Assembly: GCA_033064195.1 (NCBI GenBank)
Contig: JARBJD010000268.1
Coordinates: 40,118 to 104,117 of the forward strand
Direction: 5' to 3'
From: Blattamonas nauphoetae
Lineage: Eukaryota; Preaxostyla; Oxymonadida
Length of the DNA stretch: 64,000 bases
The notes beneath the pieces were generated by a model. That model was not told where the DNA came from. It searched no databases and saw only the letters and a list, made by a program, of their open reading frames with translations. Positions 9,224 to 46,700 of the stretch are shown here, one piece after another (the first letter of the stretch is position 1; each line of letters opens with the position of its first letter). The position numbers and the translations under genes were made by a program.

Positions 9224-11779
9224 TCACCAATAATCATCCCACCATAACCCTCTTCGTCGACGACGAGGTTGCGCACATCGAACCAGAGGAGGAAGGAGAG
9301 CTGGTGTTGTAAATCCGGGAATCGTGGAAGGTTCAAAGACGAATGACGCGACTGTACAGTTCATCCCAATCTTCATCCCCAGATCGGAGAGTGACTGTTT
9401 CAGAATCACGTTCAGCATGTCTTCCCACCCTTCCTCGCGAAGCACCACTCGCCATCTCTCTTCACTGTCGGTCTCGTTTGGGAAAGCTCGCAGCAAAAAG
9501 ACTGACATCAAGCAACACGTTTCTTTGGCACAAACAGGCGGTGATGGATTGCGTGCAACGATGACTGTGTCCATGAGAGAGTCGATGAGTTGACTTGTGC
9601 CAAGTGGAACACCAGGAAAGGACTTCAGCACTCCACAAACAGCAGAAGGATCAAAATCATTCATCCTCTTCAACGCCGACAACAGATGCAGAAGGAGTTG
9701 TCGTCGCGTCTGATCTGGCGTTGTCGTGTTGTTCTGTTGGAGGAGAGCGGCATCCTTCACTCCAATGCACTTCACTTCGAAGTCCACAAAGAATTCCAGA
9801 AGAGAGACGGGACGAGAAATCATACAATCTGCACCAGCTGAGGAGTGCTCTGCGGAAGAAGGGGGGAAGATGGTGTGGTGTGTGATGTCGTATCCATCCA
9901 GTCCGTGTGTCACCACGTCCACTCGGAGGAAGAACTCCTTCACTCGAACATAAGAAGCTGGGAGCTTGATAAAGCCAGGACGACAAGATTGTTGTGTGGG
10001 TCGATTCGTTGGTTGAGGAATCAAGTTGAGGAAGGACGAGACGAGGTGGACGAGAGGGAAGCAATCAACTGTGCGGAGCAGCGGGGTCAGTTCAGAGCAG
10101 ACACGCACCAGAGCAAGCAGCAGCGTCTCCCTCGTTTGTTCGACACGTTCGTCTTTGCTCAAGAGTGCGTTCCCTCTCTCCTTCAATCGCTGCAAGATCA
10201 GTGGATACAGCACGTGCAGTCTCTCCAATCCTGACGGCGAGCCAGCAAGTGAAGACACGGCCATTCGCATCACTCGCCACACATCCACAAGCTCGTTCAC
10301 ACCCGTCCCTGTTCTTGTTGACGATGTTGGTTCCCCATTCCCGTCGACATGTGGTGTCTGTGTCATTCCATCTGTGGTTGTCTTTTCAGTTTCTTGTGTG
10401 TCCGTGTGGAGAGGATGCCGCTGCTCGATCTCCAACAGCCTGTCCACAATCTGTTGTGCCTCGTCTTTCTCCAATCCGTCTCGATTTGCACTGTCCGAAT
10501 TCTGGCTAAGCAATGACAGGAGGAAGGAGAGTGCAAGCTCGTCCAGATCCTGCAGAAGGAGTTGGGCGATTCTGGGCACAATCTGAGACGGTACGATCAA
10601 CGTGGGTGTCTCTTTGAGGCCGATGTTGATGACGGCCAGGAGGGACAGAGCGAGTGTGTTCGACGGTTCGGGGCGGGAGAGACATTTCAACAAGGTGTGC
10701 CAGAGTGAGGAGGAAGAAGTGAGGCGGGTCACAATCTTCGACAGCGCGACGAGGATCGGATCATTTGAATGTGCATTGTGAGGGAGGAGGGCAAGAAGTC
10801 GTTTCATGAAGGGTTCTTGGATCTCGATGTAAATCTCGCAAGATGCGAAGAATTCCAGATACATTGTAAAAATTTGGACATGGTGGGAGGGTGGGGCAGC
10901 AGTGAGTGCTGTCACGAGGAGCGTGAGCGGAAGACAGTTGGCCATGTTGTGGAGGGCTTCCTCTGATGTCAAGAGGGACGAGGCGATCCGAACCAGAAGT
11001 TTGACTGTTTCGACACAAGGCGATGAGACATCGGAATCTGGAAAAAGAGCTGAAAGATGTCCGAGCAGAGTTGAAGCAGCTGCCATGTTGATCGGTGATT
11101 TTCCCCACACACGAGGTCCGCGTAAATCTATGTCGGCCTGTAGAGCGACAGTGTCAACACTGCATAAGGCTGGGAGGCACTCGTTTGGTGGGATTGAGGT
11201 CACGGAATGGAGGATGGAGACAGCCTTGTTTGTGATGGTTGTGTCCGACGATGTGACGAATAAGAGCATGTATGGCACAATTGGATCAATCATGTTCAAG
11301 GGATAGTTGTCAGTCCGCACAGAAGGAAGCCGTCCCATCTCGATGAGAACGAAATCGAGGAGATGGATTGTCGCTCGTTTGAGGACAGCGTTTCTCCCAC
11401 TATCAGAAGAACTCCCCAACGTGGTAGGACAAAAAATTGAACTGGATTGTTTCAGCGTTTCTTTGATGGTCCGTCCGATTTCATATCTGGCATTCCAGTT
11501 GTCATTGAAGGAGAACTTCTCCACGAGTGTCACGAGCATTGACCACATTTTGTCTGTTTCAAAGAGATAAAACCGATTAAATAAGCCTTCGGTTTGGCTA
11601 GATCGATCTGAAAATATCAAAAAAGTGATGGACACACTTTGGAGAATGTCGATGATTCGTTCAGCATAAAATGCTTGTGCATTGTTCTGTGTCTCGGCAA
11701 AACTGGTCACAATTTCATAGAATGAATTCCAAGTTCTCCGAAAACGACGGGAGGCCTTTTCAGGAAACAGGTATGTCAT
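9224..11779 (-). CDS. Large helical-repeat protein, family C
   Basis: Starts MTYLFPEKASRRFRRTWNSFY at 11779. A 30-nt in-frame intron (11637-11608) is predicted, giving about 841 aa. The body is alpha-helical and Leu-rich, with repeats of the type LLVTALTAAPPSHHVQI, GLERLHVLYPLILQRLKERG and SSFLNLIPQP. It has an acidic/Thr linker (about residues 470-510) and an aromatic-acidic tail RRRGLWWDDYW. No signal peptide or TM is seen, so it is probably cytoplasmic. It is a close paralogue of the transposon-split gene at 22205-26863, which continues past WWDDYW with FDPSYPDSFT, so this copy may stop early or have a further 3' exon. HEAT/armadillo-type architecture is inferred; no catalytic motif was found. 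Confidence 0.75.
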   Translation of the reverse strand: MTYLFPEKASRRFRRTWNSFYEIVTSFAETQNNAQAFYAERIIDILQSVSITFLIFSDRSSQTEGLFNRFYLFETDKMWSMLVTLVEKFSFNDNWNARYEIGRTIKETLKQSSSIFCPTTLGSSSDSGRNAVLKRATIHLLDFVLIEMGRLPSVRTDNYPLNMIDPIVPYMLLFVTSSDTTITNKAVSILHSVTSIPPNECLPALCSVDTVALQADIDLRGPRVWGKSPINMAAASTLLGHLSALFPDSDVSSPCVETVKLLVRIASSLLTSEEALHNMANCLPLTLLVTALTAAPPSHHVQIFTMYLEFFASCEIYIEIQEPFMKRLLALLPHNAHSNDPILVALSKIVTRLTSSSSLWHTLLKCLSRPEPSNTLALSLLAVINIGLKETPTLIVPSQIVPRIAQLLLQDLDELALSFLLSLLSQNSDSANRDGLEKDEAQQIVDRLLEIEQRHPLHTDTQETEKTTTDGMTQTPHVDGNGEPTSSTRTGTGVNELVDVWRVMRMAVSSLAGSPSGLERLHVLYPLILQRLKERGNALLSKDERVEQTRETLLLALVRVCSELTPLLRTVDCFPLVHLVSSFLNLIPQPTNRPTQQSCRPGFIKLPASYVRVKEFFLRVDVVTHGLDGYDITHHTIFPPSSAEHSSAGADCMISRPVSLLEFFVDFEVKCIGVKDAALLQQNNTTTPDQTRRQLLLHLLSALKRMNDFDPSAVCGVLKSFPGVPLGTSQLIDSLMDTVIVARNPSPPVCAKETCCLMSVFLLRAFPNETDSEERWRVVLREEGWEDMLNVILKQSLSDLGMKIGMNCTVASFVFEPSTIPGFTTPALLPPLVRCAQPRRRRRGLWWDDYW
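11608..11637 (-). other. Predicted 30-nt (3n) intron in family C gene
   Basis: On the minus strand GTGTGTCCATC...ATATTTTCAG sits exactly where the paralogue at 22205-26863 has a 25-nt GTGTGTTAATC... intron that must be removed. Being a multiple of three without a stop, it does not break the ORF; unspliced, it would add SVSITFLIFS. Confidence 0.7.
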
Positions 11780-14342
11780 GATTGAGGATCCAAATTAACG
11801 AGAGAACACACTAAGGGCAGGATCGAACTGGATTAATTGAATTGAAGAGAAATAGTCATATTTCAGCTTAATCATCCCTTTTCATTCCTATTATGTGGAA
11901 ATCTGAGCTGTATCGTTGAATACTATCATTATTGGCGCAGGAAATGAGGATGGAGTCGTGGATCAATCCATTCTTCGCAGTATCATCAATCCGTCTGATG
12001 AACCTTCTTGGTCTCATCCTTGTTCATCGACTCTATGTCGAAGCCACGTCCACAAAAGAGAGAATTCTGCCGCTATCTCTCCAGATGGACTTTGCTCCTC
12101 CCACAGAAGCCGCGCACATCTCTGGAAAAGAACGAGCTTTCGTGCCGCAAATAAACCTGAACCACGGAACATATCATTCGAATGTGTATCTAATGGACTC
12201 TATCTCTCTTTCGCTGCAAGGATCAGGCACAACAATCTGCCATACATCGTCTTTGACCAAGTCTGAAACAGTGAATGATCCGGACCCGGAAAACCATGGA
12301 AATGAAAATGAAAACTCGACACCATTCATATTTGTATTCTCGAATTCCACAATATCGATGTCTCAAATCTCATTGGATTGTGGATGGCGCGGCACGAGTG
12401 TCGGAAGAATCTCGTCATCCAGATTAACGATCGACAACTGCCCAATCATCTCCAACGCTGAGTCGTCTCCATTTGTGATCCACAACGAAAGGGATGACTT
12501 TGGAAGCTCGATTTTCTTTGTTGATTGTTGTCACAAATCGATTGAGAAGTCGAGCCTACTCGCGTTGGTCAGCCTCACCCCGTCCCACACAACCCACTCC
12601 TGTCACACAGACACCGACCAGGAAGTACCACCAACACTGGTCAGCTGTTCTGGCCTCTCACTGTCCGACACGCATCTCGTGTTGGGATCTGGTCCGTTGG
12701 TTGCTTTCTCGTCATCGACAGAACAAAACACGGGATTCTGGAACAATTTGGAGACTGTGTTGATGAAGAGCAGACTCGTGAACATGACAAGTGATGAGGA
12801 TAAGGGGGCGTTGGAAGGATGGCGCAGAAGTCAAAAGATTCTGGGTTCGTCTGTGACTCAGAGCACAAACCATCTTTCTGGAACAACATGCATTGACATG
12901 AACTTGGGAGGGAGTCTTCTGTGCTCAAACACGTCCTTCTCACACTGCCAATCCTCCCTCGAACCAGAAATGATAAGAGACACAGATGACCGCAACATCC
13001 GTCGCTGCACATTTCTCTCGATGACTTCTTCTGAATTCGGAGCAGCAATCTATCATGCATTGAGAATCCGTCCCCTCATCGTGTCTGAATGCTCTTTCTC
13101 GAAATGCTCAGCAGAAGGAGGTGGCGGATCTATCGGTTTCCATCAATTATCAGATGGACACACTCCAATCACAATCTCTTCCTCGCTCTTCGTCGATTGT
13201 TCAGCTCAAGCAGGCGGGGCAGTTGACTTGATGGGTGCAAGCATCTGCACCATGGACAAAGTTGTCTTCCTCAATAACAACGCGTCTCTGTATGGAGGTG
13301 GTCTCGCGGTGAGCACTACTGATCAACTTACACTCTCGAACTGCGTCTTCGAGAAGTGTGACACTGATGTCTCTTGGGCATCGTATGGAGGGGGAGGGGT
13401 GTATCTGTATAACATCACGTCGCTCAGTCTGGATTCTGTGCTTTTCAGACGATGCAGTGCTAAGGAAGGAAATGACATTCATATTCTCTCTCAAGTTATT
13501 ACGATTCAGACACTTTTGCCAAACGTCACGAATTGTGATTCAACTTCAGAAAGGCCGAATGTGTACTTATCGTTCTCATTTGACAATACTCTGATTCCTG
13601 CTGTGCCAGACGCCTCAACTGCAAGTCTTGTGATGATTGACAACACACCAAGTGTTGATCAGACATCATCGACCATTCGAATGAGAGTGTCAAACAATGT
13701 GAATGGGAAGATGTTGGTTTTGGTGGACAACCCCAACCACGAACGACCAAACGACGACTCTCCCCCAGCGATTGCTCGTCTTCTGACGTTCGACTTCAGC
13801 ACGTCGACCAAATCAGCCACTCAAGAAGTGTCATTTGGAGATTGGGAAAAACTGCAATATGAATCGGAATATTGTGTGATTGCTGCATCGATTACAAACA
13901 CTCGCCTCACCATTCCACCATCGATTACTCTGACGACACCGAATCCTCCTCGTATTGTGCAAATCACATGTTCACTGGGCTCAGGAACAGACCACTGCTG
14001 GCTGCAATTGAAGGGTCGAACACTTCCAATTGGTCGATACACCGTGAAACTTGTTGCAGTTCCAGAATTGACATTCTCCGTTGAGTTTGATGGATCGAAA
14101 GGGGGACCAAACACTCTGAACATGTTCTCGTCTCGTCATTCCGAGAGATTGTTTGGAGCAGGAAGCAAACTGACATTCTCGACGAAATACGAAGTGGCAT
14201 CGATCAGATTCGAAGACGACACTGAACCATTCTTCCTCGACCCTCCTCGCCTCTTCTTCACACCAGTGGAACAGCCTCGATTGATTTCAATTGGTCCAGT
14301 CAGCTTCAAAAACGAATCAACGAAAGACACTATCCTGATCCC

Positions 14343-27566: not shown

Positions 27567-27970
27567 TCATCCTTTCGTCGACATCACGTTCCCATCTTTC
27601 TCGTTCGATTGGTCAGGAACGCTCTCCAGTTCGTTCAGCAGAGACAACACTGTTTTCAGTGATGGTCGTTGAGCTGGGTCCAGGGAGAGATATGGAACGA
27701 TGATCGCCTGCATCTCATCACTCACTTTCTCCATTTTTGGCTGCTCGCCAGATGCCAGTCGACGCTGAGCTGCCGCTCCATCCACTTCCCCGAAGGGCAC
27801 ACAACCAGTCTCAATTTCCCACAAGACAAGGCCGAGACTAAAAACTGCCCCGTGGTCAGCATTCTCTTTCGCCTGCATCCAGCTCTCCTTTAACACTTCT
27901 GGCGCTATCCATCGCTGTCCGTCTTCCGACATCTTCTTTCCTCCTTCCCCAATTCAAGTCTCACCAATAG

Positions 27971-30900
27971 GACCGCCCTTCCAGTAGGTCCATTACGAAA
28001 CCTGGGGCTCCTCTCATGACGAGATATGGTGTGATCAATTATAAGAATAAGTTATTAATGGGTAGGCCTGGTCAATTTCTTCATTCAAATACATTTATGC
28101 CACCTCCTCATCGTTACTCATGGAAATATCTCTTTCCAATATCGATCCTTAACAAGTTGATGCTCCTTTGATGGTCAATCATATTATTGAGACCTCACTT
28201 CTGTCAACAATTAGTTGCCTTCTCTGGCAGTACAACCCACAAACCCACTCTCCCATGACACGCTAGTTAACAATAGTAGCTCACGGATCTCGTATCCAGA
28301 CATTTTGTCAACGAATGGCTCACTCGACACCTAGTTGGAGCAGATTGATCCTCGAATCATTCACCAACTCCAGATGTAGTTATTAGCTCAGTGTCTTTTC
28401 GATTTGGTGATTACCGTCGAATTAGTGTTCATCACGAGTGCGAAGGTTAGTTGTACAAGATATCGCACACTTCACCAACCGGACTCAGAGTCCAGAACAC
28501 AGACAGAATAGGAGGCAACCCTACGATGAGGAGGCAGGAATACGCATCAAAGATATGAAAGGACGACAAACCGGCGAATGTTATCAGATTGGATCCCTCC
28601 AGTCGGAAGAACCCTCGACAATTTCAATTATCTTCACCTGAAGACAGCCGGACTTTCATCCAAGTTGTCCGTACAGACAGGGTAAGAAGATTACGAGGGT
28701 GAACTCAGCATATCGATCATGTGAGGTGTGGGACTCATGTGTCCCTCTCACCAGCGACTTCGATCGACACAATGACGTGGTAAAGTCCAGTACCATCATG
28801 CAATGAACAAACTCAAAAGGAGTGGAGGACAGAATCAGCAATGACAACGCACGATAAGCGAAGCCGAGATCCACAAAATCAAGGTCCCATCGATACTGGG
28901 AGAGTGGTATTTAAACAAAGGCAAACCGTAAATAACCCTCTAAGCCGAGCCACAAGCGTCTATTTACTGTTGCCACTTCATCGTGAGTGCACTGTCGACG
29001 CAACAGGGATCCTCTATCCCGACTCCCTCTAGATATCCGACAACTTCAAAAATTCCAAAATATTGGACACAAATCGGCTTCTATCCATCGACATCTTGAA
29101 TTATTCCCTCTTCCTTGAGTTCTCTCATGTTTTGAACACAACAGCGCCTCTCGTTTCTACAACTCTTAAAATTCCAACAATTGCAACATACATCTCTTTC
29201 GCTGACCAATTATAGCATCTATGCCTCAACCAGTATAGGGGAACGATCTTATTGACGAGTATTGTTACTCTGAGGCGGACTACAACCAGTTGTAGCCACA
29301 TCTTCCATCACGGACTATCAAGATCACTGGGGTCAGCATTCTGCCTGAATAAACATCAAAACACCATCTCCGAGTTTCTTATCGAGAATTGTTCGAAACT
29401 GGAGGTTTGTATGCCGGCACAAAACAGCTCTCGGTGCAAGCTTATCATCGACACTGATATGTCAGTCAGACCCCCAACAACTTCAACTCGCATTGCTATT
29501 TCGAAAACGAATGTAATTACGTTCCTTTATGCGTTTGTCTTCAAAGACACTGTCAGTTTCCCCGCACCACGAAACAGCTCCGTCGAGAAAGGTGACGACC
29601 CTTGCGATTTCACCACCATTCATTCATCTCCGACGGGCATTGACGATCATCAAACTCTGTGTCGCTTCCTTCTCTCTCCCTGAGGACACAACGACCACAA
29701 AATTGTCTGTTGCGAACTCACGAGCTCTCAGAGATTCGGCTGTATGTCTCGACAACAGTCTGAAATTCACCATCTCCAAGTTTGGTGTTGACAGATGTTG
29801 CTAATCGGAGACAACTCTGTCGAACAAGAAGGCAAATTTCGGAACCCAACATCGAATTAGTTCTCTCACATCCCGAGGAAGCTCGGTTGAGAAATGAGAT
29901 AACTTCCGTGCGATTTGGTCATCCCATTGGCTCCGTCTCCAATCCTTGCTTCGATGCTCCCCGACCATCCTTTTTTTCTTACAGCCTGAACGACAAACTC
30001 TGATGTGAACACACCAACCACCGATAGCCTCGCTGTCTTCATTGCTGATGTATCCAGATAAACTAAGTTCACCATCGTATCTTCCTCCCTGACTGTCGAC
30101 GCCACAGATCCAGTACTTGTCAAATGGACCGTGACAGAAACGAGATAGAGAACTGAATTGGTTCTTCACCTGGACAACTCGTTGTTGAAGAAAGGTCCGT
30201 CCGCAGCACCAGCTCTGCCACGTTCAGTGTGAGTTGCATCCGCTGGGCAGAATTGGTCAGCGATGACATTGTCACCTGTTCAGAACGTTGTTGTAGAAAC
30301 GCTGGGAACATCGCTCAGCGAGAGAATTATCGGTCAGCGTCGATGAATGGATGGAGAATGTTGCAATCCATCCCAACCACAAAGATCTCCTCGGTTCGAC
30401 CATTGTCGAGCTTGATATGTCCGTGCAAGGCTCAGAACTGCAACGATGGCTCAAACAAGTTGACCATCGAAAGGAGACAAGGTTACGACCGAGACACTCC
30501 ATTGTGAATGATAGTTACAGTGTCATTGTGAGTCAGCTTTGTTGTTCCTGATATAGTTCGACGGAACGGACTTTCAACACCGAATTATTTGATGAGTGTG
30601 ACATTGATCGAACAGTTTCCTGAGGGAAACTCCACAGCGAGCATCTCAACAACTCCAGTCTCCACTGCTCGTCTGATTGGTATTGGCGCAGTATTGCGCA
30701 CTGATTGACAGGAAGACAGGACTCTTCCATTCATATCTTCTGGATAGTTTCCATCACAGATGTTGGGAAGACGTCGATTGTGTTCACAATCGTTCAACAC
30801 TAACGAATTCTCATCCGAACACTTTTCACCACCGACAGCCTTGACTCGCGAACTTCATTCAGGTTTCCTGTTTCTCCGCAGACATTGTCTCTCCATTTGT

Positions 30901-32367
30901 TCGAATCCAACGAAACTGTGTTGTACTCACACTTTCTGGTCGTGCGCTTCCCCCACACGACCACATCCTCAGCCCTGAGAACCCACCAGACCTGAAGGAC
31001 TCTTCCAGAGTGTGGCCAGACGATCATCGCGACAGGATTCGAGGGTAGGAATGAAAATGGAGAAGATGTGCATGTAAATGGAGCCCTTACGATCTTTTTG
31101 ACAACAAAGCTAGCTGTCATCATCAACAGCTCTCTGAATCCCGTTGTCACCAGGAAGGGAGAGATACCGTTCAACTAAACTGGATCTTCAACGGTATTGA
31201 CAACAGAATCGGGTCAATTGCTATGACTCGTGATTCAGCAACAAATGTTATTCAAATGGAATATGGGACACTCACGCGATCAAATGATCATTGTGCACTC
31301 TACGAGCAAAGGGCAGTCTTTCACTCGAGGGAGATCTGGGTATTCACAAAGCTGTTTCTCATCTGATTATGATTCAGAGACCGAATGACTTCGAGAGCGA
31401 AGAACTCATAATAGAGTTGACCAACACGACTGCAGGTACTGGAGGCGAGGTACTCTCCGAAGTTGCCCGATCGATGGTGGTGAAGGGGGAAGCAGTCTAT
31501 TCCGGGCACAACCTTCTTCTATCCAGAAGACATTGCCACATTGAGTTCGTCACACTCACACGAAGGGTCATCCTTTGCACTCTCTGTCACCTCGCCGCAA
31601 GCATTATTCACAACTGTCCCGTCTTTCAGGCAGACCGGAACGTTTAGTGTGGAGTCGGAGTATCGTGTCTGAAGGAGCCGGCATCTTCAGTTCGGACACC
31701 GATCTTGTCTTCGAAGGGTCGAAGCAATCGGATGTTCATAATGACAAGTGGGGGAGAGACAAGAAGACATGAGTGAGTGAGCACTTCGGCTGGTCACCGA
31801 ATGGTCTTGCGCTCCAAACTCACTCCACCTTGTTCTATTATGTTTGGTGGCAGCAGCTTGTCGCTGGTCACGGCCTGCCTTCACCATCACCTCTATCAGT
31901 TGAGACTTCAGGCTTGTTTTCTTCCTTATTCATCCCTTTTTTGGTCCTTTCAAGTCTCGTCATGAGAGGAGCCCCAGGTTTCGTAATGGACCTACTGGAA
32001 GGGCGGTCCTTTTACAGAAACCAGGGCTCCTCTCATCTAATAGTCTGCCACACCCACAGGTTTTCTTCTCCAATGGGAATTGGAGTTTCTTTTACCTTTT
32101 TTGCTCCTTCTCCCGGTCTTTGACCAGAACCAGGTGCTCACCGAGAGGTGGCAACTGGGAATATTATGGGAGAGCCTCTTGAACTCAAAGAGAGAACTCG
32201 TACAAGTTCCTACACTTCTCTCTTTACTCTTGATTTGTTTCTCGGTTCACGACCGAGAAAGATTTCATTTGAATGTTCATTATTTACAGGCCTACCCATT
32301 AATAACTTATTCTTATAATTGATCACACCATATCTCGTCATGAGAGGAGCCCTGGTTTCTGTAAAAG
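27971..32367. mobile_element. Composite inverted-repeat insertion, 4397 bp
   Basis: It interrupts the receptor gene between ...CACCAATAG (27970) and CAACACTCTG (32368); the undisturbed sequence is seen at 37194-37213. Two element units abut at 32008/32009. The first, 27971-32008, has 54-bp perfect TIRs starting GACCGCCCTTCCAG. The second, 32009-32367 (359 bp), has TIRs of at least 28 bp starting CTTTTACAGAAACC. Both share the inner motif GGGCTCCTCTCATGACGAGA and are one family. The left end 28025-28070 also carries an inverted copy of 32290-32339, so ends have been exchanged. No obvious target duplication and no long ORF in 28070-31950. Confidence 0.75.
28071..31954. other. Interior of the composite insertion: no intact gene
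   Basis: Only short ORFs on both strands. Some (29252-29683 plus, 29801-30311 minus) have Ser/Thr-rich strands like decayed surface-protein gene, but no family motif survives. It may be captured and degenerated host sequence. Confidence 0.4.
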
Positions 32368-32593
32368 CAACACTCTGCTTCTCTCGCATCTTCAGACACA
32401 CTCGATCGTTCTTGTCAAACAGAACCCAGTGCGGTGATAGTCTAGTCACAACTTCCGAAATCACTCCCATCTCCACAAGACCAGCAAGTCCTTTCGCAAT
32501 CGCCTGACTCACTTTTCGTTTCTCCACAAATCGAGTCGATTGGGGATTGTGCAGAGCATTGAACAGCGTGTCTGTCTCCACTGCCACTGAACG

Positions 32594-33938
32594 GGTAGGT
32601 CTAGACTCAGATCCGAAAAAGTCTAGGCGCAGATCTGCAGATCGGTCTAGGCGCAGATCTCGAAGTCTACACGCAGATCTCTCTTTCTTCGTGTTATTTT
32701 CGACTTTGAATCACATTTTAATCTTCTCAAACCTAAATATAGACATCGTATCCTGTTTTTGGGCTTTTCACTTCACTTAACAGCATTATTGCATCAGTTG
32801 ATTCAAATCTCGATCAGAACCTGGGTTGATCAAGTCTCATCGCCTGCACAACGAATAACTGCACCTGGCTGGATGCTCCCCAGCAAGTGTTTGTTCTCCC
32901 ATTCCTTTTCCATACTCCTTTTCATCATCATCGTTTCCACTACTGAATTCCACCAGCAACCAGCGTTTGCCAATACCCCTGTAAAATTCTGGATTCAATT
33001 TCACCAGATATCCTCTCTCCTCATGTCTCCAAGTTCACTCTCACTGATCTCCTCATCCATCCTCCAGGATCTCCAATCAGAATCGACGGTTCACTCACCA
33101 ATCGTATGCCCTTCTCTTCTTCGAATATCTCTCTTGACTTCATCATCAGCATCTCATCATTATTCTGGTCATTACCTTCCCATCTTTCTTAATCCTGATG
33201 ACACTCTCGTTTCCTCCACACCTCAATCGATTTTGATCTGGAACCAGTCTCCTCCGCACATGGCTGAACATTACACCCCGCTTGAAAGAAGAACAATGAA
33301 ACCAGGATGACAGGAAATGATGACGCAGGAAGAAATGTGCGAGAAGGAGCGAGAAAGGGGCATCTAAAAGATGCAAATTCGGAGGAGAGTGAACGAGGAC
33401 TGAGAAAGACTGTTGAAGAACAAAGGCTGAAAGATGAAACCAAAAACCAAAGATAAACATAATTACAAGGCTGTGGACAACATAATGAGGTCAGACCAGG
33501 AAAGAAGCTGAAGGCGTGAGGAGTAACCAACTATGGCCCAAACGCGTTGTCCTCCCTGCCCAGTGCAAAGAGACATTGCAGATATGAGAAAAGCCGGAAA
33601 AACACGAAGAATATACAAGAGGGAGTGCAAAGGATGAGGAGACGAGGCGGAGACACAGACATCGTTAAGGACACGCTTGTTTGAACAAATGCGGTCTTCA
33701 TGACATGCACCTTTGGCTTTGCGAGTGGTGGTTCCAAGGAAAAGACCATACACCCCTCGCTGTTGAAGATGGATGGTGGTACACAGTCAATCACCCTTCT
33801 GAACATGACCAGCAGATCTACATCGATTTTGAAGCTGTCGACAGCTGATTCTGGACGAATAGTGTCCGAAAACGCAAACTCTCTTCCAGGCATCTATCGC
33901 CCTCGTCCAATCGTTCCTGGTCTCAATTGCCAAGCGAG
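32594..33938. other. TIR and leader region of the cargo element
   Basis: After the TIR, ORFs at 32873-33310 (starting MLPSKCLFSHSFSILLF, a possible signal peptide but then only Ser-rich) and 33700-33942 are weak. None was accepted as a gene. Confidence 0.35.
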
Positions 33939-36809
33939 ATGATGGCATGGAAATCCTCCTTCTTCTCGTCGCTTTCTGAGAACTCGGAGTCTGTTCAGCG
34001 GATTGATGAACAGGAATTGGACCGTCTTGGCGGATGGAGGCGAGCAGTCCTCTTGATCGACGAAATCTGCATCATGTGCCGTGGACAGGAAGACAATTTA
34101 ATCCAATCTGTCGTCACAGAACTTGTCGACAACGGCGTTATCTCCAAACTAACAAGGGTCCTCACGAAGATCATCGTAATCCCAGATGCCAACGCTAACA
34201 CAAGACACCATCACACTCGACCACCTGACACTCAATTCAGTCAACAGAACAGCCAACCATTCTTTTCATATTTGCGAGAGAATGACAAGGCAGATCAGAT
34301 TTCTACGCCCCTCACGCCAACACCACCGAAACAGACGTCGCCTTTCCTTGCCCTCACGAATACGCTTCTGTCGTTGCTCTCGTTCAACGCACAGGCTGTT
34401 ATCACCGCACATCAGGACGAACATGTCCAGAATTATCCCTCTCTGCACACCATCGTGTTCGCGATCCTCTTTGCATCACCGAGATCAATCACGCAACAAT
34501 TGTTTGATGTGGTTTTTCTCATAATGACAAATACACCAGCGTCCCATCCCCTTTCTTCGCTGATCACTAAGCACCTAATTCCGCTCCTATTCAGCCCCAT
34601 CACGTCAGTCCCTCTGACCCATCAACTCTCCCTCTTTCCTCCCCCAAAACCCAACCTTTCCGACAACCACGCCCTCCAAGAAGTCCTGACACTCTCACTC
34701 GCGGGTATTCCCTCATCTTCAGACGAGATCTCCTCGCGTGATCTGGTGTCCCTTCATCCGTGTACCGATTGCTCATACTGCCTAAACGCATGGAAACACA
34801 GAACAGGTGTTGCAGATCTCGAAGATGAATCGATCCCGACATTTCCTCTTTCTTCTGTCCCCCTCCAGCAACTGTGTGAACTGGCGTGCCATTTGGTATC
34901 CACGAGTCACCCTCAAATCCTCTCTTTCTTCTCAAACTCGGTGTTCACCCAGCATATTCTTATTTTGTTCGGACAGATCCCCATTTCTTCCTCGTTTAGT
35001 TTGCCCGCTCTTCGCTACCTTCGAACCGCCCTCCATTCGTCCAACACTCTTTTGACCTTATTTTTCCCCCCAAACACGCCAAACATGACACTTCCGTCAA
35101 TTTCTGGATTAGATTTTCATCATCCCCTTTCTTTGCTGGACCAGGTGAACCTGTCGTCCTTCCTCCCGCCCGCTCTCTTCGACCACCCGTCATTCGCCCC
35201 AACCAATCCCTTCTATCTCATCTTCACTCCATTCCTGAAACACCGTCTGTCAGATCACGCTCTGAGCTCGTCCCTTCTCGAGTTTCTCCTCACCCTCCTT
35301 CCTCAAAACCACTCATCAGAAGAAACACGCCACGGGATCCTTCTTCTCTTCGTGTACCCGTTCATGGTGATGCAGTTTGCCCAGCGTGTCCGGACCATCG
35401 AGATGGAGGGGATGGAAGAACGGCGATTGGAGGAACAGAGCTTTCGGGAAGAGATGGCACGAGTCGAACAGAACTGGGTGGGTAACCTGAAGGACAAGGG
35501 GAAGGAAGAAATCATGCTTGATTTTGTCGAATGGCGTCTTGCTCGATTTGATTGTCATTCTGTAGCAACAGTCCAAACAATCAACAACCACTCCCACACT
35601 CGCACAGTCTCTTTCACCCACAACTCCCTTCTCGAGCTTCCTGAGGTGAAGGGAGTGGGGATGGTTGACGTGTTGGAGTGGCTGTGTCGAGACGAGTACA
35701 TCCTCGAGCTGTGCGACGCTGTCTCCGAAGCGTTGGACGAAGATGGGACCCTCGAAGCTGATCTGGAGAAGTGGTGTTCGAAGACAAGCGAGATTCAAGA
35801 GCAGCTTCTCGTCGACCTCAAACAACGAAACGCGCAGACGAGACTCGACGCCGAGCAGCAAAGGCAAGAGGAATGGGAGTTCTTCGTCAAGTCGAGAGCG
35901 GAAGAGGAGGAGTCGAAGGCACAGAAGGCCACTGTAGTCTCAATCGATTCTCCGCCAACCCAGCCTTCGCACATTCGGGGATCGTCGCCGTGGCAGACAG
36001 ACTCTCCGCTGTTCTCAACATCGCAACACTCACCGGCGTCGATCTCTCGCTCCTTCCTCTCTCTTCAGATGGCGTCGACTAGTTGGATGCCCCCGTTCCC
36101 CTCCACCACTCCTCAGCCACGCAGCATCAACCACTCCCTCTCTGCCCAGCGCTTCATGTTTGAGGCTGGCAGTCCGAGCACAATGTCCGACAGCACACCT
36201 CCCCTGATCAGTCTCAAAATCATGTCTCGATCGCCAGCCACGTCGGAAGAGTCTTCGGAGGCTGAGCAGAGCATCCCAACCATCTTCCATTCGCTTCACA
36301 AGTCGTCGTCTGGGAAGCAGACAGTCCCTACAGCACAATCACCGAAATCAACCCAGTCACCACCGCATGAACCAAAGCAACCGATCTTCGAGGAACTGCA
36401 CTGTTCGCCGACAGATTCGCATCAGCTTCTCTTCAACACACCTCCCTTCCCACACTCCCTCCTCTCCGCTGCCACATCCTCCTCCCTGCCTCGACCCACT
36501 CCTCGCCCGCCTTCTCGCCAGTCCCCCACACTCCGTCCCTCAGGCAAAGAGGTCGAGACCGACACGTTGGGATCGTTTGAACTGGTTGGGATTGACGAGA
36601 TTGAGGCTGTCGACACTGGACACTTCAACGCGTCGTCGCCCTTCTCTTCCTCTCCTTTCACGGCTTCTCTCTCGCGGTTCAGTGTAAGTGTCCCAAGTGA
36701 CACCGCAACAATCTCATTCCTTCCTCAGAACTCGCCTTCAGACACGCAATCACTCGGCTTGGGAATGTCTACCGCGTTTGAGTGTGAAAGCGATGATGGA
36801 GGACATTAA
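33939..36809 (+). CDS. Unknown 956-aa protein carried inside the TIR element
   Basis: The ORF starts at ATG 33939 (MMAWKSSFFSSLSENSES); the frame is open slightly further but only from a TTG. The N-terminal two thirds are Leu-rich helical, resembling the host helical-repeat families in texture (AVLLIDEICIMCRGQEDN, LFDVVFLIMTNTPASHPLSS). A Cys motif CTDCSYC lies near residue 275. Residues ~490-680 form a charged coiled coil (RTIEMEGMEERRLEEQSFRE; LDAEQQRQEEWEFFVKSRAE). The last ~270 residues are Ser/Pro-rich and disordered, ending ECESDDGGH. No transposase, nuclease or polymerase motif was found. Composition is like the host, so it is probably a host gene captured by the transposon. Confidence 0.6.
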   Translation: MMAWKSSFFSSLSENSESVQRIDEQELDRLGGWRRAVLLIDEICIMCRGQEDNLIQSVVTELVDNGVISKLTRVLTKIIVIPDANANTRHHHTRPPDTQFSQQNSQPFFSYLRENDKADQISTPLTPTPPKQTSPFLALTNTLLSLLSFNAQAVITAHQDEHVQNYPSLHTIVFAILFASPRSITQQLFDVVFLIMTNTPASHPLSSLITKHLIPLLFSPITSVPLTHQLSLFPPPKPNLSDNHALQEVLTLSLAGIPSSSDEISSRDLVSLHPCTDCSYCLNAWKHRTGVADLEDESIPTFPLSSVPLQQLCELACHLVSTSHPQILSFFSNSVFTQHILILFGQIPISSSFSLPALRYLRTALHSSNTLLTLFFPPNTPNMTLPSISGLDFHHPLSLLDQVNLSSFLPPALFDHPSFAPTNPFYLIFTPFLKHRLSDHALSSSLLEFLLTLLPQNHSSEETRHGILLLFVYPFMVMQFAQRVRTIEMEGMEERRLEEQSFREEMARVEQNWVGNLKDKGKEEIMLDFVEWRLARFDCHSVATVQTINNHSHTRTVSFTHNSLLELPEVKGVGMVDVLEWLCRDEYILELCDAVSEALDEDGTLEADLEKWCSKTSEIQEQLLVDLKQRNAQTRLDAEQQRQEEWEFFVKSRAEEEESKAQKATVVSIDSPPTQPSHIRGSSPWQTDSPLFSTSQHSPASISRSFLSLQMASTSWMPPFPSTTPQPRSINHSLSAQRFMFEAGSPSTMSDSTPPLISLKIMSRSPATSEESSEAEQSIPTIFHSLHKSSSGKQTVPTAQSPKSTQSPPHEPKQPIFEELHCSPTDSHQLLFNTPPFPHSLLSAATSSSLPRPTPRPPSRQSPTLRPSGKEVETDTLGSFELVGIDEIEAVDTGHFNASSPFSSSPFTASLSRFSVSVPSDTATISFLPQNSPSDTQSLGLGMSTAFECESDDGGH

Positions 36810-37111
36810 CAAGGCGATACGTCCTGTGGATGAAGACTGAACGGCCAGTGATTGGGATGAGGATACTGCAGCGGCAGCAAGCGACATTCATGGGTGGGAT
36901 CAACTCTGAAGTCAACTCCAAACTGCAATGCCGAAAAATGCGAAATGATCAACACAAAATTCACATTTCACGTCGTATTCTTTGATTGCAAACATTTTTA
37001 AGTCGAAATGAACCAAAACAAGAGAGATCTGCGTGTAGACTTCGAGATCTGCGCCTAGACCGATCTGCAGATCTGCGTCTAGACTTTTCCGGATCTGAGC
37101 CTAGACTTACC

Positions 37112-37429
37112 CCAGCTCTCCTTTAACACTTCTGGCGCTATCCATCGCTGTCCGTCTTTCGACATCTTCTTTCCTCCTTCCCCAATTCAAGTCTCACCAA
37201 TAGCAACACTCTGCTTCTCTCGCATCTTCAGACACACTCGATCGTTCTTGTCAAACAGAACCCAGTGCGGTGATAGTCTAGTCACAACTTCCGAAATCAC
37301 TCCCATCTCCACAAGACCAGCAAGTCCTTTCGCAATCGCCTGACTCACTTTTCGTTTCTCCACAAATCGAGTCGATTGGGGATTGTGCAGAGCATTGAAC
37401 AGCGTGTCTGTCTCCACTGCCACTGAACG
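37112..37429 (-). repeat. 318-bp direct duplication, upstream copy
   Basis: It codes for VAVETDTLF...KESW of the pseudokinase region. The other copy is 32368-32593 joined to 27879-27970, almost identical (one mismatch noted, CTTTC vs CTTCC near 37159). Each copy abuts a TIR end of the cargo element. Confidence 0.85.
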
Positions 37430-39175
37430 CTCCATCTTCTCGTTGCACACAATCACTTCCATACACAATTGTGCGGGTGAAATCTCTCCGTCACACGCAA
37501 ATCGCGTTCCCTCGAATTGTGTGCTTTGTTGTTCAATTCTCGACGGAAGTGAAGAGATTGCGCTGTTTGGTGGATCAGTGATTGGATCATTATCTTTCAT
37601 CTTCTCCTCTTCTTCAACTTGTGCTGGCGTCATTTCCTCGTTCATCAGCAGCACATTCCGAGCTGAGTGTCGCTTTCGATGCATACAGACACACACCACA
37701 ATCACCAGTGAAACAAGAAGCGCACACGACAGACAAATGATCACAGGAATCCACCACTTTGATCCTACTCCTCCAAGCGATTTGTTTCCTGAACCCAATT
37801 CGGACACAACCATCCAATTCTCAGTTCGCACATCATTTCCAAACACAAGACGACCTCGCAACTCCATCTTTTTGTTCAGATTGGGAATATCTGCAGCTGA
37901 GAATGGAATGATGATTTCAGTTTCGTTCCAATGTGTTGCTGATGACGTTGAGAGATCAATATTCTCACTTTTACCTTCAATGCCCTTCGACGAATCCCAC
38001 TCAAACACTTCCAACGATAATCCACATGGCATCAGTGTCTTCCCAACAACTTTCACTGTCCGTTTCCCACTTTTGTCGGATTCAACTTTCGATTCGGTTG
38101 AGTTCAGAGTTGGGACGAAGAGTGGTGATCGAGCAATGTCTTCATCTCCTTCGATTGTGCATTCGGACGCGTCCAACCAGGCAGAAGGGGAGTTCTTTGT
38201 CCCATCGCCCTTCGCTAGACTGTCTATCACAAGTCTTCCTTCTCCCTCGCAGTGCATGTTCTGGCGAGCGGAGGGGAAGTCGGCGATCGATGGTCCGTTT
38301 TGAGAGAACACTCCAGCTGCCACTTTCAGCTTCCCTCCTCGCATCCAAATCCCTCCCATTTCAATTTCTCTCATCGACACACCATTCAACTCAGTGTCTG
38401 TCTCGATCAGCTCAATCAATCCTCTCGACCATCCACAAATCCATTCATCCTCGATGTTCGACTCGATGTGTGGTGTTCTTTCAATCGAGCAGCTTCGAAT
38501 CACAACTGTCCCTTTCGATGCTGACACAAGTTTGAACGTTGAGACTGACAAGTCGACTGTGATTGTGAGCAGCGTCAGCCTGCACTGTGCGTCCTCCTCC
38601 ACTGAGAGTAGCACTGATGTTGGCTGGGACGAGGATATGCGGGCACGAAGGGTTGCTGGTTCAGCTTGGAATGAAATAAGAGTGAATGGGACACGAGTTG
38701 TGACGATGAGAGGAGAGGTGAGGTCAACTGAGTCGACAATTCGCATTGTCGTGTCCAGAATCCCGAGAGAAGTCGCTGTGTTCCACGATGATTGTAATCC
38801 AGCGCAGGTTTCTGCATCAGCTTTGCTCATTTCCATCCCTGACATCTCATCTTTTCCACAAACACACAACGACAACTTCGATGGCTTCGGAGGTGTTTTG
38901 ATGGTTGTTTCTGTGAGTTGGATTGGTTGCCGGTTTGAGTCTTTAATTGTTGTGATTTTGTATTCTGAACCAAATGCGAGAGAACCACTCACTCCAAGTG
39001 CGATCACGGCGCTTCGACCAAATGTTGACGAACTGAATGAGACAGCGAAAGAGAACGAATCATTCAGTGTTATCAGTCCAACTGTTTCAAAAGGAAGATT
39101 CGTTCCAGAAACTTCAACCACGATCGATGTGTTCAGTGAACTGGCGAGAACAACTTCGATTCTCGTGATCAGTTC

Positions 39176-40743: not shown

Positions 40744-43700
40744 TCAATTTGTTTTCGAAGCGAGTTTGTTTTGGTGATCGTCAGTTGGAAGTGGTGGACT
40801 GTCCAACTGGTCGAGCAAAGAAGACACTGTTTTCAGAGAAGGTCGTTGTGACGCATCCAAATTTAGACAAGAATCGATGATCGCCTGCATCTCCTCACTC
40901 ACTTTCTCCATGTTCGGCTTCTCTCCCAATCGAAGTCGCCGCTGAGCTGTCTGCTCGTCCACTTCCCCAAACGGCACAAGACCAGTCTCGATTTCCCACA
41001 ACACCAGGCCTAGACTAAAAACTGTCGCGTGGTCACCCTGCGCTGAGATTTGGGTCGAATTCTGATTCGCGATTTCAGGTGCCATCCAGCGCTGAAACTC
41101 CAGATTCCCTTTCTTCAAGTCCGCAATTTGTGGACTCTTTTGTGTTTGTTTGTTCTCCCCCATCGATTTCTGATCACTTCGAGTCTTCAGACAGACGCGG
41201 TTCAGTCCGTCAAAAAAGACCCAATGCGACGACAGTTTCGTCATGATGTCCACAACAGGCTTGACTTGGGCGAGCGAGACGAGTCCCCGAGCGATCTGTT
41301 GTTGAACTGAGAGCTTGCACACTTCGCGCGTCGAGTCCTTCGAGTGCAGAGCAGAATAGAGCGTGTCTGTCTCTTTCGCTGTCGACAGCTCATTCCCATT
41401 TTCGCACACAACAACTTCCACACACGTCGAATTGGGCATTTCTCCAGCTTGTTGGAGTTGTGTGTCTTCGACGTGAGATTTTTCGATTGGCTGAATCGAG
41501 GACGAGACGGCGAGAGCGCTGTTGGAGGGGTTGACGTTGAACTCGTCAACAGCAACCTTCTCTTCGTCCATCGGTTGGATCGTCATTTCTTCCAGGTTCT
41601 TCGGCAGTTCCTTCTTCTGCTTTCGTCTCCACAGAATCACAGCAACGATGATCAGAAGAACGGAGAGACAGACAAGAATAATGACGAGAGGAAGCCACCA
41701 CTTCATGTTCTTTTTCGCCGATTCTGATCTTCGCGCAGAAAGTGAAGCCTGTATTTGGAATGATGTTGATGTTCGTTGGTCTTTCTCGAATGTCAGTCGA
41801 CCTCGCCATTCGTGTTTGTCGGACAGAAGCGAGAACGAGGAGCGGTCGATGGAGAGAGTGATGTTGGTGTCAGTGAACGTGGTGGACGACGACGGATCGA
41901 GTGGGATGGGGACTGCGTTGCCTTCCACATCGTCCTTCTCCATTTCAAACACTTCCAGCGACAGACCACACGGAATCAATGTCGTTCCAAGAACAACAAC
42001 ATTGAACTCATTCTTCCTCTTCTCCAAAGTGCTCGTCGAGTTCGGCGAAAGTGTTGGGACGAACAGCGGCGCGTTCGATTCGACGTCACCCATTGTCACT
42101 GAGCACGTGTCGGTGGAAATCCACGCAGACGACCCATTCGCTCCATCCCCAATCGTCACACCAATTATTTCGATCTTCCCTTCTTCCGAACAATGGATGT
42201 TCCGACGAATCGATGTGAACGGCGAGGACGGAGGAGTGTTGGACTCGAACGATGACGATCGGATCTTCAGAAATCCCTTTTTCATCTCGATCGCTCCGGA
42301 AGGAATATGAATGAACTCTGTTTTCAAAACGTCAACCTCACACGAGTTCAATCGAATCAATCCTGTCGTCCACGAGCAGATATTGTCATTGCTCGCGTGG
42401 GAGGCGGCGGCTGACGATTCAACTGTGAAAAGACCATCTCTCAATTCGATCGTGGCACTGTCACCATCCAAAAACACGAATGTGGGAGAAGTGTTCTGGA
42501 CGATCACATCCACATTCCGAAGCTCGATGAATCCACTCGTCACCATAATCAATCCAGCTCCCTCCGCGACAGACGTGGACGACGGAACAAACAGTTTTGG
42601 TTCTGTGTCCCATCCATTCGAGACGAGCACATGCATTGATCCTGTCACTTCCATTTGTGATGAAAGTGTCGACGATTTAAGGATGAAGATGCTCGGATGG
42701 AGGAACGAGAACGCTGCGACAATCCTCCACGCCTCGTCCATCGTCTTGCACGGTCTGGTCTCGTCCCCACAGAACGCTGTGTCTGTGCCTGTTTCTGTGT
42801 CCACATAGAAGCGAGGGCTCGGCATTGAATCCGGAAGCCTGAACGTGAGTGGTTTGTCGAACAGCACGTCGCGATCGATGGGGTTGAGTGGCGTGATGGT
42901 GTCGACTTCGTATTCCGTGCCGAATTGAAGCGAGTCTGCTGATTGAAGTGACATCTCGTCAGATATCGCGTTGGTTGCGCTCTCCATCGTGATGATGAAG
43001 GAGAGAGTTGTGGTGAGTGTCACTTTGTACTTCTTCCCCATCTCCAAATTCGTCCCTTTAAACGACACAACGCATCCAGTGGAGGGTGTGTTGATGTGAA
43101 CAGACGGTGAGTGGATTTCGGGCGGTGCAGTGGGAACAGTGAATGAACATGTTTCGACATCGAAGTTGAGTGATGTGCTTCCTCGCTTGAACGATTGAAC
43201 GGTGTACATCAGACCATACTCGAGCTGTTCTCCTCGTTTTGGTTCTTCCTCGATTGGATACAGGGAATGATAAAACGAGGTGATCGTGCCATCGTTCTCA
43301 GTTGTGACGGTGATTGACTTTGTGTGACTGGGGATTGACGAAACAGCGGTGGATAAGACCGTGATCGTGTACTTAGTGTTAGCGAGAAGTGCACACGATG
43401 AGAATGTCAGAAGCAGCTCCGATTGTTGAGGATCAGAGCAGGAAGAAGCACAAGAGACACTCACAAGTCGCTCTGGTTCTTTTGGTGTTGAGAAGACGCA
43501 TGCAGATTTCTCAATCAACACAGGTGACGAGTCATTCGTTCGATTCATCTCCTCAACTGAGTACGTGTATCCATACAGAAGCTGACGGACAGGACAAAGT
43601 GTCACGGAGAGTGTGTTCGATGTTGCTGATGACGGTGTTAGTTTCAGCGTTGTCGAGTGCTCCTCATTCGATCCTGATGTCGCAGTGGGAGTTCCAACAA

Positions 43701-46700
43701 CCTTGATTGAGTATTCTGATCCTGGTGTCAGAGCACGAGAGTTCAATGTCAGTGTTGTTCCATTGTCATCATGGACATTCGATATTGAAACAAGACGAGC
43801 TGGCTCTTCCATGATTGGGATGTCAGGAACAGTGTCTCGAATCAGTTCTGTCGAATCAGCTCCCTTCCTGAACGAACTCACTGTGTACGTCGTACCATAC
43901 ACCAGTTCAGCTTCAGTCAAAGGATAGAGAGTTGCCGATCCCTCCCATTGGTCACTCGGTGTGTTGAAACTCATCTCAATCGTGTGATTCTCTGTGGCTG
44001 ATGCACTCAGCACAACTTTGTATGTTACTCCTTCTTCCAACACTAGACCTGTCATCACGAATCCAATCCTCTTCTTCTCGTTGTCGTATTGTCCCTTAGT
44101 GAACGTAACAAGACGTGTCGGTTCTGCAGGGGTTGAGAAGTCATGGTCCGACTTCTCAATCAGCACAGGTGACGAGTCATTCGTTCGATTCATCTCCTCA
44201 ACTGAGTACGTGTATCCATACAGAAGATCACCAGGGAACGGATAGAGTGATGCTGACAGTATGTTCGATGTATCTGATGTCGCTGTCATCGTGAGAATTG
44301 AGCTGTGCTCCTCATTCGATTCTGGAGTCGCCGTGGGTGTTCCAACAACCTTGATTGAGTATTCTGATCCTGGTGTCAGAGCACGAGAGTTCAATGTCAG
44401 TGTTGTTCCATTGTCACCATCCACTTTCGATATTGAGACAAGACGAGCCGGCTCGTCCATGATTGTGATTACAGGAATAGCTTAGTTATATGGATCACTG
44501 TATTCATAACTGACCCCGAAGTTGCCGAACGAGTACTTCTTCCCATACACCAGTTTAGCTTCTGTCGAAGGATAGAGAACTGCTGATCCTTCCCACTTTC
44601 CATTCGTCTGGTTATAGTCCATATCAATGGAAGGATATTTTGGTGATGCTTTTAAACTAACATAGTATGATTTTGTCTGATCCAAGGCTCGACCTTCCAT
44701 CACAAATGTAACTGTCTTCATCTCGCTGTCATAGTGGCTCACTTTGAACCCAGTCAGACGCAACGGTTCTGTCGGCATGGAGATAACAGTTGTCGAATTC
44801 TCAATCAGCACATCTGAGTTATCACTCTTTCGTTTCATCTCTTTCACCACATAGTCATGCCCATAACGAAGCCGATTATCAGCAAAAGGATAGACTGTCA
44901 CATAATCAGAAGTGTAGGTGGCTTGCTGTGCAGTCACAGTGAACGTGGTGTTGTGCTCCTCATTCGATCCTGACTCTCTGGGAGTTCCACTCACTTCCAT
45001 CAAGTAATCTGACCCTGGTGTCAGAACGCGAGTGGTCAGATTCAGTGTGAGTCTATATTGACTTGCCGCCGTCCAAATCCTCGTGAGACGGGCTGGTTCG
45101 GGTATGATTTCAATGTCTTGGAGAGTGTCTCGAGGTAATTCTATCGGATCGGTTCCGCTCCTGAATGAATACACTGTGTATTTTTTGCCATACATCAGTT
45201 TAGCGTCAAACGAAGGATAGAGCACTGCTGATCCCTCCCACTTCCCATTCGTTGTGCTGTATTTCATATCAATCGTGTGATTCACGCTGGCTGACGCACT
45301 CAGCCCAACTTTGTAAGTTGCTTTTGGATCCAAACGCATCCCGGTCAGGTTGAAGTACACAACCTTCTTTTGTTCGTCGTATCTATCAAGCAGGAACGAG
45401 GTGAGTGCGGGCGGCTCTGGAGGAGTGGTGAAAGTGACCTTGCCTGCAATCGCGACTTCTTGTTCCGTTGGTTCATCTTCGGGAATCCAAAGAACTTTCG
45501 TCACTTCGTATTCTGTCGCCCATTTCAGTCTCCATTCTGCTGATTCTGGAGAGAGAGGTGCTGTTGCTGTCAGAGCTGTCGTCCATTCGGACCAACTGAG
45601 TGTGATGTTCAACTCACTTCCTCCGTTCTCAACAAGCATCGAATAGCTTCCTCTGCCCAGATGTGTCCCTCTCAACACAATCGTTGTTGTTGTTAAGTCA
45701 TTCAGTGTGGCGGCAGCTCTCCGAACAGTTGGCTGAAAGAATTGAGCGGTCGCCAATGCTGTCTTGTGATGCTTGTATGTTGCACTCGGAAGAACCCCGT
45801 TTTTTCCAGACGTGACGACGACTGTTCCGATGGTCGACTTGGTTGATTGTGTTCCAAACACGACATGGACGAGTCGAGGAACAATCGATCCATTCAGCAG
45901 CACTCCCATCGTTCCACTGATCTCTTGATCAGACTCAACTGTCACGGTCGCTTTGTCTCCATTTCTCGAGACACTCACAGAGTTGATTGTGGGTGTTGAG
46001 CTGATCTGCGGGATAAGAGTGTTGTCTGATTGTTTATCTTCTTTGAAATACACATTGTCTTCACCTGATGTAGAGTCACAGAAATGGAACATGTCTGGTG
46101 TGATTTGGGATGATGCATTGTAAGAGAAATACACGTCCTTTCCGCTTGGATCATTTGTGCTGGAACATTCTCTGAAAACACAGGAGAAGAGAGACAACGC
46201 TACCGCGGTGTAGAGTGTGAGAGCTCCAGAATGGTGTTCCGCAGAACAGTTGACGAACGAACAGTACGCAACTGTGACATCTTCGGAGCTGATGTAAAGA
46301 GCACCGTCCGTAGACGCGTAGGAACTGTCAAAGAAACAGTGATCGATCAACGCGGATTGTACTCGGCGAACAGATAGACTTCCAGCGCTGTTGAATTTGG
46401 TCTGAAAGTCCAGGTAACAATCAGTGAAAGAGGAGCCAGTGACGGAGATCGGGCCTGGATCGTTGGTCAAAGTTCCGAAGAAAACGGCGCCACCCATATC
46501 ATCTTCCAACAAGCATCTGCAGTTGTGGAAGAAGCAGGATGTGATTGCGAGCGACGACGATGTTTGGGACAGACTGATCGCTGCCCCTCCTCCAAAAGAG
46601 ATCCAAGCTCCTGTTCCGTTGATGTCTGGATCGACGGTGACTGAGGCTGACATGTCTTTGAATGTGCAGAGAGTGAATATGACTGATGTGGCTTCTGAGT

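Follow-up and report, generated by a model that had tools for sequence, protein, structure and literature searches.

The E2 locus and its duplicated host segment

We analyzed a stretch of 64,000 nucleotides (the window) on contig C188 of the oxymonad Blattamonas nauphoetae, a gut protist, in which a kinase-like gene holds an element with terminal inverted repeats (TIRs), here called E2, set between two near-identical copies of a short piece of that gene. One of these copies is in turn split by a second element, E1. The genome assembly measures 88.3 Mb in 837 contigs, referred to here by a C and a number. It was built by Canu and afterwards polished; the Nanopore reads came from DNA that had been sheared to about 20 kb (PMC10703272). 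The features of the locus are, in window coordinates:

27567..27879, minus strand: far (3') part of the host kinase-like gene, left flank; collinear with the paralogues on C117, on C335 and at 40744-44460 of the window
27880..27969, minus strand: duplicated host segment, copy 1, first 90 bp (repeat comparison)
27970..32366, plus strand: E1, DIRS-like by anatomy, in copy 1 only; unequal inverted ends, fused internal complements, no target site duplication (TSD)
32367..32592, minus strand: duplicated host segment, copy 1, last 226 bp, ending CCACTGAAC (repeat comparison)
32593..37112, no strand assigned: E2, best called a Mutator-type TIR element, 4,520 bp; belongs to the 12 examined copies with a size of about 4.52 kb
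32593..32684, plus strand: left TIR of E2 (inverted repeat)
33927..36809, plus strand: open reading frame of 960 aa in E2, distantly related to a PP4R3-domain protein of B. nauphoetae
37021..37112, minus strand: right TIR of E2 (inverted repeat)
37113..37428, minus strand: duplicated host segment, copy 2, intact, starting CAGCTCTCC (repeat comparison)
37429..39121, minus strand: near (5') part of the host kinase-like gene, right flank; alignment with C117 and C335 over 1,200 bp
40744..44460, minus strand: host-gene paralogue (1,238 aa) whose matched pieces have the spacing of a single-copy arrangement

A first-pass annotation of this DNA had described a TIR element between two nearly identical 318-bp copies of host-gene sequence, each copy ending exactly at a TIR. 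Comparison of the edges confirmed both points, as E2 has TIRs of about 92 bp, the two copies abut these TIRs exactly and a single base, at position 47, separates one copy from the other. The length required a correction: when the ambiguous edge bases are assigned to the TIRs the duplicated unit is 316 bp, and copy 1 is not intact, being divided by E1 into 90 and 226 bp, with copy 2 whole. The E2 termini read GGGTAGG...CTTACCC. The 11-mer GGTAAGTCTAG, given earlier for the TIR, occurs at the right end only and the left end reads GGTAGGTCTAG. The 9-mers beside E2 are unrelated to each other, CCACTGAAC on the left and CAGCTCTCC on the right, and represent the two ends of the duplicated segment. 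The window copy of E2 thus has no TSD.

The left flank, one 316-bp copy and the right flank taken together aligned in one piece both with C117 (80.7%, 1,873 columns, 22 gaps) and with C335 (82.8%, 1,839 columns, 6 gaps), and the spacing in the window paralogue (40744-44460) likewise fits a single copy of the segment. Since the paralogues hold the 316 bp once, this is a true duplication, real as sequence and not a product of chance. Elsewhere in the genome the segment has relatives only: identity does not exceed 88% where the match extends to about 300 bp or beyond, and reaches 91% at most in short pieces (82 bp). Because the two copies differ at one base and long matches elsewhere do not exceed 88%, one gene was the source of both. 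Recombination between paralogous genes was also considered, and is ruled out by the same two figures.

The intact paralogue has a kinase match (PF07714) at residues 1117-1214 of its 1,238. The 644-aa frame of the host gene itself (37190-39121) gave no Pfam match, therefore the label "pseudokinase" rests on the paralogue.

No transposase was found in the window copy of E2. Its 960-aa open reading frame matches a protein of this species with a PP4R3 domain (37% identity over 67%). Six relatives of the encoded protein were found, all from B. nauphoetae (BLNAU_ names), and a contig search of genomes returned none outside this genome. Judged from the sequence, the cargo is a diverged host-type gene, not a transposase, and E2 is apparently a gene-carrying non-autonomous element. 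In several sister copies the 960-aa frame is shorter; the single-base gaps seen there may be assembly errors.

Target site duplications in the E2 family

The 92-base TIR was used as a query, and the best 40 of 294 candidates were scored, all 40 with at least 96% identity. Further ends came from pattern searches, one of which matched 286 places as compared to 149 for its reversed-pattern control, so that 286 was not used as a count of ends; the corresponding 143 elements are a loose guess that enters solely into a chance estimate given below. The ends examined were those among the first of these 286 places and those shown by the other searches. Facing ends were paired at plausible distances and their flanks were read, giving 40 elements in three batches (17, 20 and 3), the window copy included. 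Ends without a partner at such a distance were left out of the TSD count (for example on C4, C9, C17, C27, C35, C46, C58 and C66, and also on C69, C78, C90, C106, C129, C161 and C213), as was C115:80866, where the other end is not at the place expected of a 4.52-kb copy.

The results showed a perfect 9-bp TSD in 35 of the 40 paired elements (14/17, 18/20 and 3/3 by batch). With the element on C158, in which 8 of 9 bases match, 36/40 follow the 9-bp rule, and therefore the transposase makes no long duplications as a rule. All three elements of the last batch (C756, C779 and C168) have a perfect TSD; C168 spans 9.6 kb, and apart from it the elements sharing these TIRs measure about 1.5 to 6.2 kb. 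A TSD is absent from four of the 40: the window copy and those on C113, C341 and C634 (88939-93457). Long direct duplications in the flanks were found in none of 36 other elements (0.4 or 1.4 kb of flank compared); for C756, C779 and C168 the comparison covered the 9-mers only. On C85 the flanks hold a diverged direct similarity of 95 bp (74%) that does not abut the TIRs. Close insertions do occur, since on C161, C213 and C115 family ends face each other at distances of 155, 723 and 933 bp.

Families of Mutator-like elements (MULEs) are recognized by a TSD of about 9 bp, long TIRs and a transposase with a MULE domain. At C212:44980 a transposase with the MULE domain PF10551 (E 5e-19) lies 1.4 kb inside a TIR of the E2 family. 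This transposase, or a close relative, was also found 2.7 kb inside the TIR at C212:273638 and 2.3 kb inside that at C161:58121, in both cases with internal stops. Transposase matches of at least 84% occur at six loci, three of which (twice on C212 and on C161) are within 3 kb inside a listed family TIR and in the matching direction; of the remainder, the one on C170 is 7.7 kb inside a TIR, and those on C9 and C158 have no listed TIR nearby on the right side. None of the elements could be closed with both TIRs and an intact transposase. At C212:44980 the far TIR was not found within 6.6 kb and the copy runs into a tandem-repeat array. In the region C212:44930-51600 long arrays of short tandem repeats stand on both sides of the MULE transposase gene, with MVLTKRLVAE-like units in one frame. 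A 4,980-bp member at C115:74953-79932 has a 9-bp TSD and two frames (353 and 195 aa) that by eye resemble a broken transposase; neither gave a significant Pfam match.

The family resembles MULEs in its 9-bp TSD, its TIRs of about 92 bp and the MULE-domain genes 1.4-2.7 kb inside the TIR at three places, as well as in having size classes with differing interiors but common TIRs and in carrying a host-like gene. It differs in that the window copy has neither transposase nor TSD, and in that no complete autonomous element was closed. On the strength of the 9-bp TSD, the long TIRs and the presence of MULE transposase genes inside the same TIR, the family would be best called Mutator-type, and E2 is a young, non-autonomous element of a family that normally inserts with a 9-bp TSD. 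No description of the E2 family appeared among the open-licence papers that the literature searches listed, and the main text of the genome paper has no word beginning "transposable" (PMC10703272).

Copies without a target site duplication and the origin of the 316-bp duplication

Twelve of the paired elements are of about 4.52 kb. Ten, read over their full length, match from one end to the other, and C756 and C779 were placed by size and TIR only. The four copies without a TSD all belong to this class, 4/12 as compared to 0/28 among the others (p = 0.005, hypergeometric, post hoc); before C756, C779 and C168 were included the values were 4/10 and 0/27 (p = 0.003). The boundary of the subfamily containing the exceptions is not sharp. 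C3, C89, C116 and C447 share the E2 coding interior and C168 has an E2-type end, and all five have a perfect TSD; when they are grouped with the twelve, the TSD is missing in 4/17 as compared to 0/23 (p = 0.03), and in 4/14 as compared to 0/23 when C168, C756 and C779 are omitted from this grouping (p = 0.015). By substitutions the ten fully compared copies are 99.7-100% identical, and six of them have the 9-bp TSD.

The other three copies without a TSD also have rearranged flanks. The distance between the two flanks of C113, computed from coordinates, is 5,585, 5,583 and 5,583 bp at three paralogous places, so that a 5.58-kb piece is apparently missing at the element. In C634, 400 bp of the left flank recur at 100% identity on C679 and C35, where the sequence continues uninterrupted by the element. 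The right flank is multi-copy sequence that continues in C174 (89%); these flanks come from different sequences, and one element therefore joins two different targets. C341 has one flank in common with both C113 and contig C797. C113 and C341 have the same element-flank junction on that side, where 227 bp of common flank are 99.6% identical (222 bp at 100% in a second comparison), and their other flanks do not match each other. Within the two elements, the 1,990 columns next to the shared junction hold no substitution and two 1-base gaps, and the other 2,536 columns hold six substitutions (chance 0.03 if six fell evenly), a pattern such as a chimeric element would produce. Long direct duplications were absent from the flanks of C113 and C341 (1.4 kb each side) and of C634 (about 0.4 kb). 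By eye, the 9-mers of the TSD-less copies have no partners, except that the left 9-mer is common to C113 and C341.

Two further features were observed at these places. The flanks in C113:93717-101230 contain an inverted repeat whose arms show 100% identity for 665 bp or more, which is a second rearrangement at the same place. The 12.6-kb contig C797 aligns with C341 (1,584 columns, one mismatch, 21 gaps) and stops inside a TIR; its stretch 11050-12616 repeats the sequence left of the C341 element almost exactly, as a redundant contig broken at the repeat.

We consider it fairly probable (about 0.58) that the window arrangement was made by unequal exchange between two E2 insertions in the same orientation, 316 bp apart. 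Two such copies would have been present on two homologues or sister chromatids, one at site x with the target 9-mer CAGCTCTCC and one at site y, the opposite end of the 316 bp, with CCACTGAAC. A single unequal crossover inside E2 would then create the order x-to-y, E2, x-to-y, in which the sequence up to y, with the y 9-mer, borders E2 on the left and the x 9-mer, followed by the sequence from x, borders it on the right, and E1 would have entered copy 1 afterwards. This model reproduces the window arrangement exactly, edges included; the parental insertions, the crossover and the later entry of E1 are what we infer from it. Under unequal exchange the duplication in the window, the deletion in C113 and the flank swaps in C341 and C634 are all outcomes of recombination between dispersed copies. 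Unequal recombination was one of three origins proposed in the first-pass annotation, and is the one we favor.

Several observations weigh against this explanation. Neither parental insertion, that is E2 with its own TSD at one of the two sites, was seen, and a search of the assembly gave no second near-identical copy of the locus. From 143 elements, the loose guess mentioned above, random pairs within 316 bp are expected 0.07 times per genome; random closeness is thus unlikely, and local transposition or a hot spot is needed. The ten copies have 14 informative single-nucleotide polymorphisms with 13 incompatible pairs, giving at least 3 exchanges by Hudson-Kaplan. All 13 pairs involve column 765, beside a gap column, or column 3038, so that two recurrent changes would suffice and the sign of exchange is weak. 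E2 itself is no clear mosaic, as its nearest relatives, C158 and C334, each differ from it by two substitutions. Finally, an assembler that joined two haplotypes would yield the same letters.

This last point makes an assembly chimera a serious rival, ranked next after unequal recombination and clearly less probable than it. Haplotypes, or cells of the culture, with E2 at two sites 316 bp apart would have been crossed by the assembler inside the near-identical 4.5-kb repeat. The way the assembly was made, by Canu from Nanopore reads of sheared DNA (about 20 kb), fits this (PMC10703272), and so does the redundant contig C797, which by ending inside a family TIR indicates that the repeat troubled the assembler. 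All four TSD-less copies are moreover of the 4.52-kb size, the commonest among the paired elements, and a chimera explains why the exceptions fall among near-identical copies. However, a 4.5-kb element should be crossed by reads of about 20 kb, an alternative contig for the locus was looked for and not found, and two insertions 316 bp apart are still required. A one-step aberrant insertion, in which the E2 ends joined positions 316 bp apart on sister chromatids, or at an open break during duplication, and left no TSD, is in our opinion rather unlikely. A precedent is IS481, found de novo in Pseudomonas fluorescens SBW25 at the junction of a 59.9-kb duplication with no TSD (PMC11708052), and alternative Ac/Ds transposition in maize makes tandem duplications (PMC4270019). 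Such insertions would be expected in all size classes, yet the missing TSDs are confined to the elements of about 4.52 kb; the maize alleles with tandem duplications and composite insertions have transposon ends with normal 8-bp TSDs (PMC4270019), and C113 and C341, which have one junction in common but differ in their far halves, point to exchange. The fuller version, in which a Mutator-type transposase inserted E2 in one step into sister chromatids or a collapsed replication fork, as for IS481, and the TSD-less deletion and swap copies came from the same aberrant pathway, is marginally more doubtful again.

Two explanations have little in their favor. A 316-bp tandem duplication that existed before E2 arrived would give the same outer arrangement, but E2 must then have hit one exact base at its junction, and the 9-bp TSD expected there is absent, which makes this very improbable. 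The least credible of all is a true 316-bp TSD from widely staggered transposase cuts, the new mode of integration suggested by the first-pass annotation. The exact abutment of each copy on a TIR speaks for it. Nevertheless, among the paired elements of the family, the window copy included, short TSDs of 9 bp occur in 36/40, which is the outcome that the first-pass annotation had itself named as refuting its idea; they include 8/12 of about 4.52 kb and six among the ten copies that are at least 99.7% identical. The flanks compared contain no second case of a long direct duplication abutting an element; a 318-bp target duplication as a mode of integration is thus unsupported.

Unequal exchange has parallels in known systems. 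For the Galileo inversion of Drosophila buzzatii, exchanged TSDs and chimeric copies were described as signs of ectopic recombination (PMC2775673). The E2 family resembles Galileo in its exchanged or missing TSDs, its signs of chimeric copies and its rearranged flanks; the Galileo inversion arose from copies in opposite orientation, whereas the small direct duplication at E2 would stem from copies in the same orientation (PMC2775673). The IS481 insertion is likewise an element without a TSD between two copies of a duplicated segment, for which the authors favor insertion into a break, but it is bacterial, the duplication is 59.9 kb and the event was seen arising de novo (PMC11708052). In maize, Ac/Ds also leaves tandem duplications separated by a transposon, although these range from 8 kb to 5.3 Mb and the new insertion has 8-bp TSDs (PMC4270019).

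The most likely explanation is an ordinary one, and the Mutator-type kind is already known, the E2 family being a new member of it. What had been put forward as a new mode of integration is instead probably a gene rearrangement that a transposon mediated in an oxymonad. The young, near-identical family could be used to gauge the rate at which pieces of protist genes are duplicated, deleted and swapped by recombination between DNA transposons or, alternatively, the rate of assembly errors at such repeats.

The second element, E1

DIRS elements lack a TSD and are characterized by inverted ends that are unequal and by an internal region with complementarity to both. In E1 the internal stretch from 31989 is a fusion of two complements, one of the left end and one of the right end, and no TSD was found in the window copy, the one copy in which it was looked for. 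The ends of E1 are constant, GGACCGCC...TGTAAAA, in all six copies examined, the window copy among them. Five of the longest E1 frames gave no significant Pfam match, so that neither a reverse transcriptase nor a tyrosine recombinase was identified in them, and from its letters E1 appears DIRS-like in anatomy only. Because copy 2 has no E1, we infer that E1 inserted after the duplication or was present on one of the two parental chromosomes.

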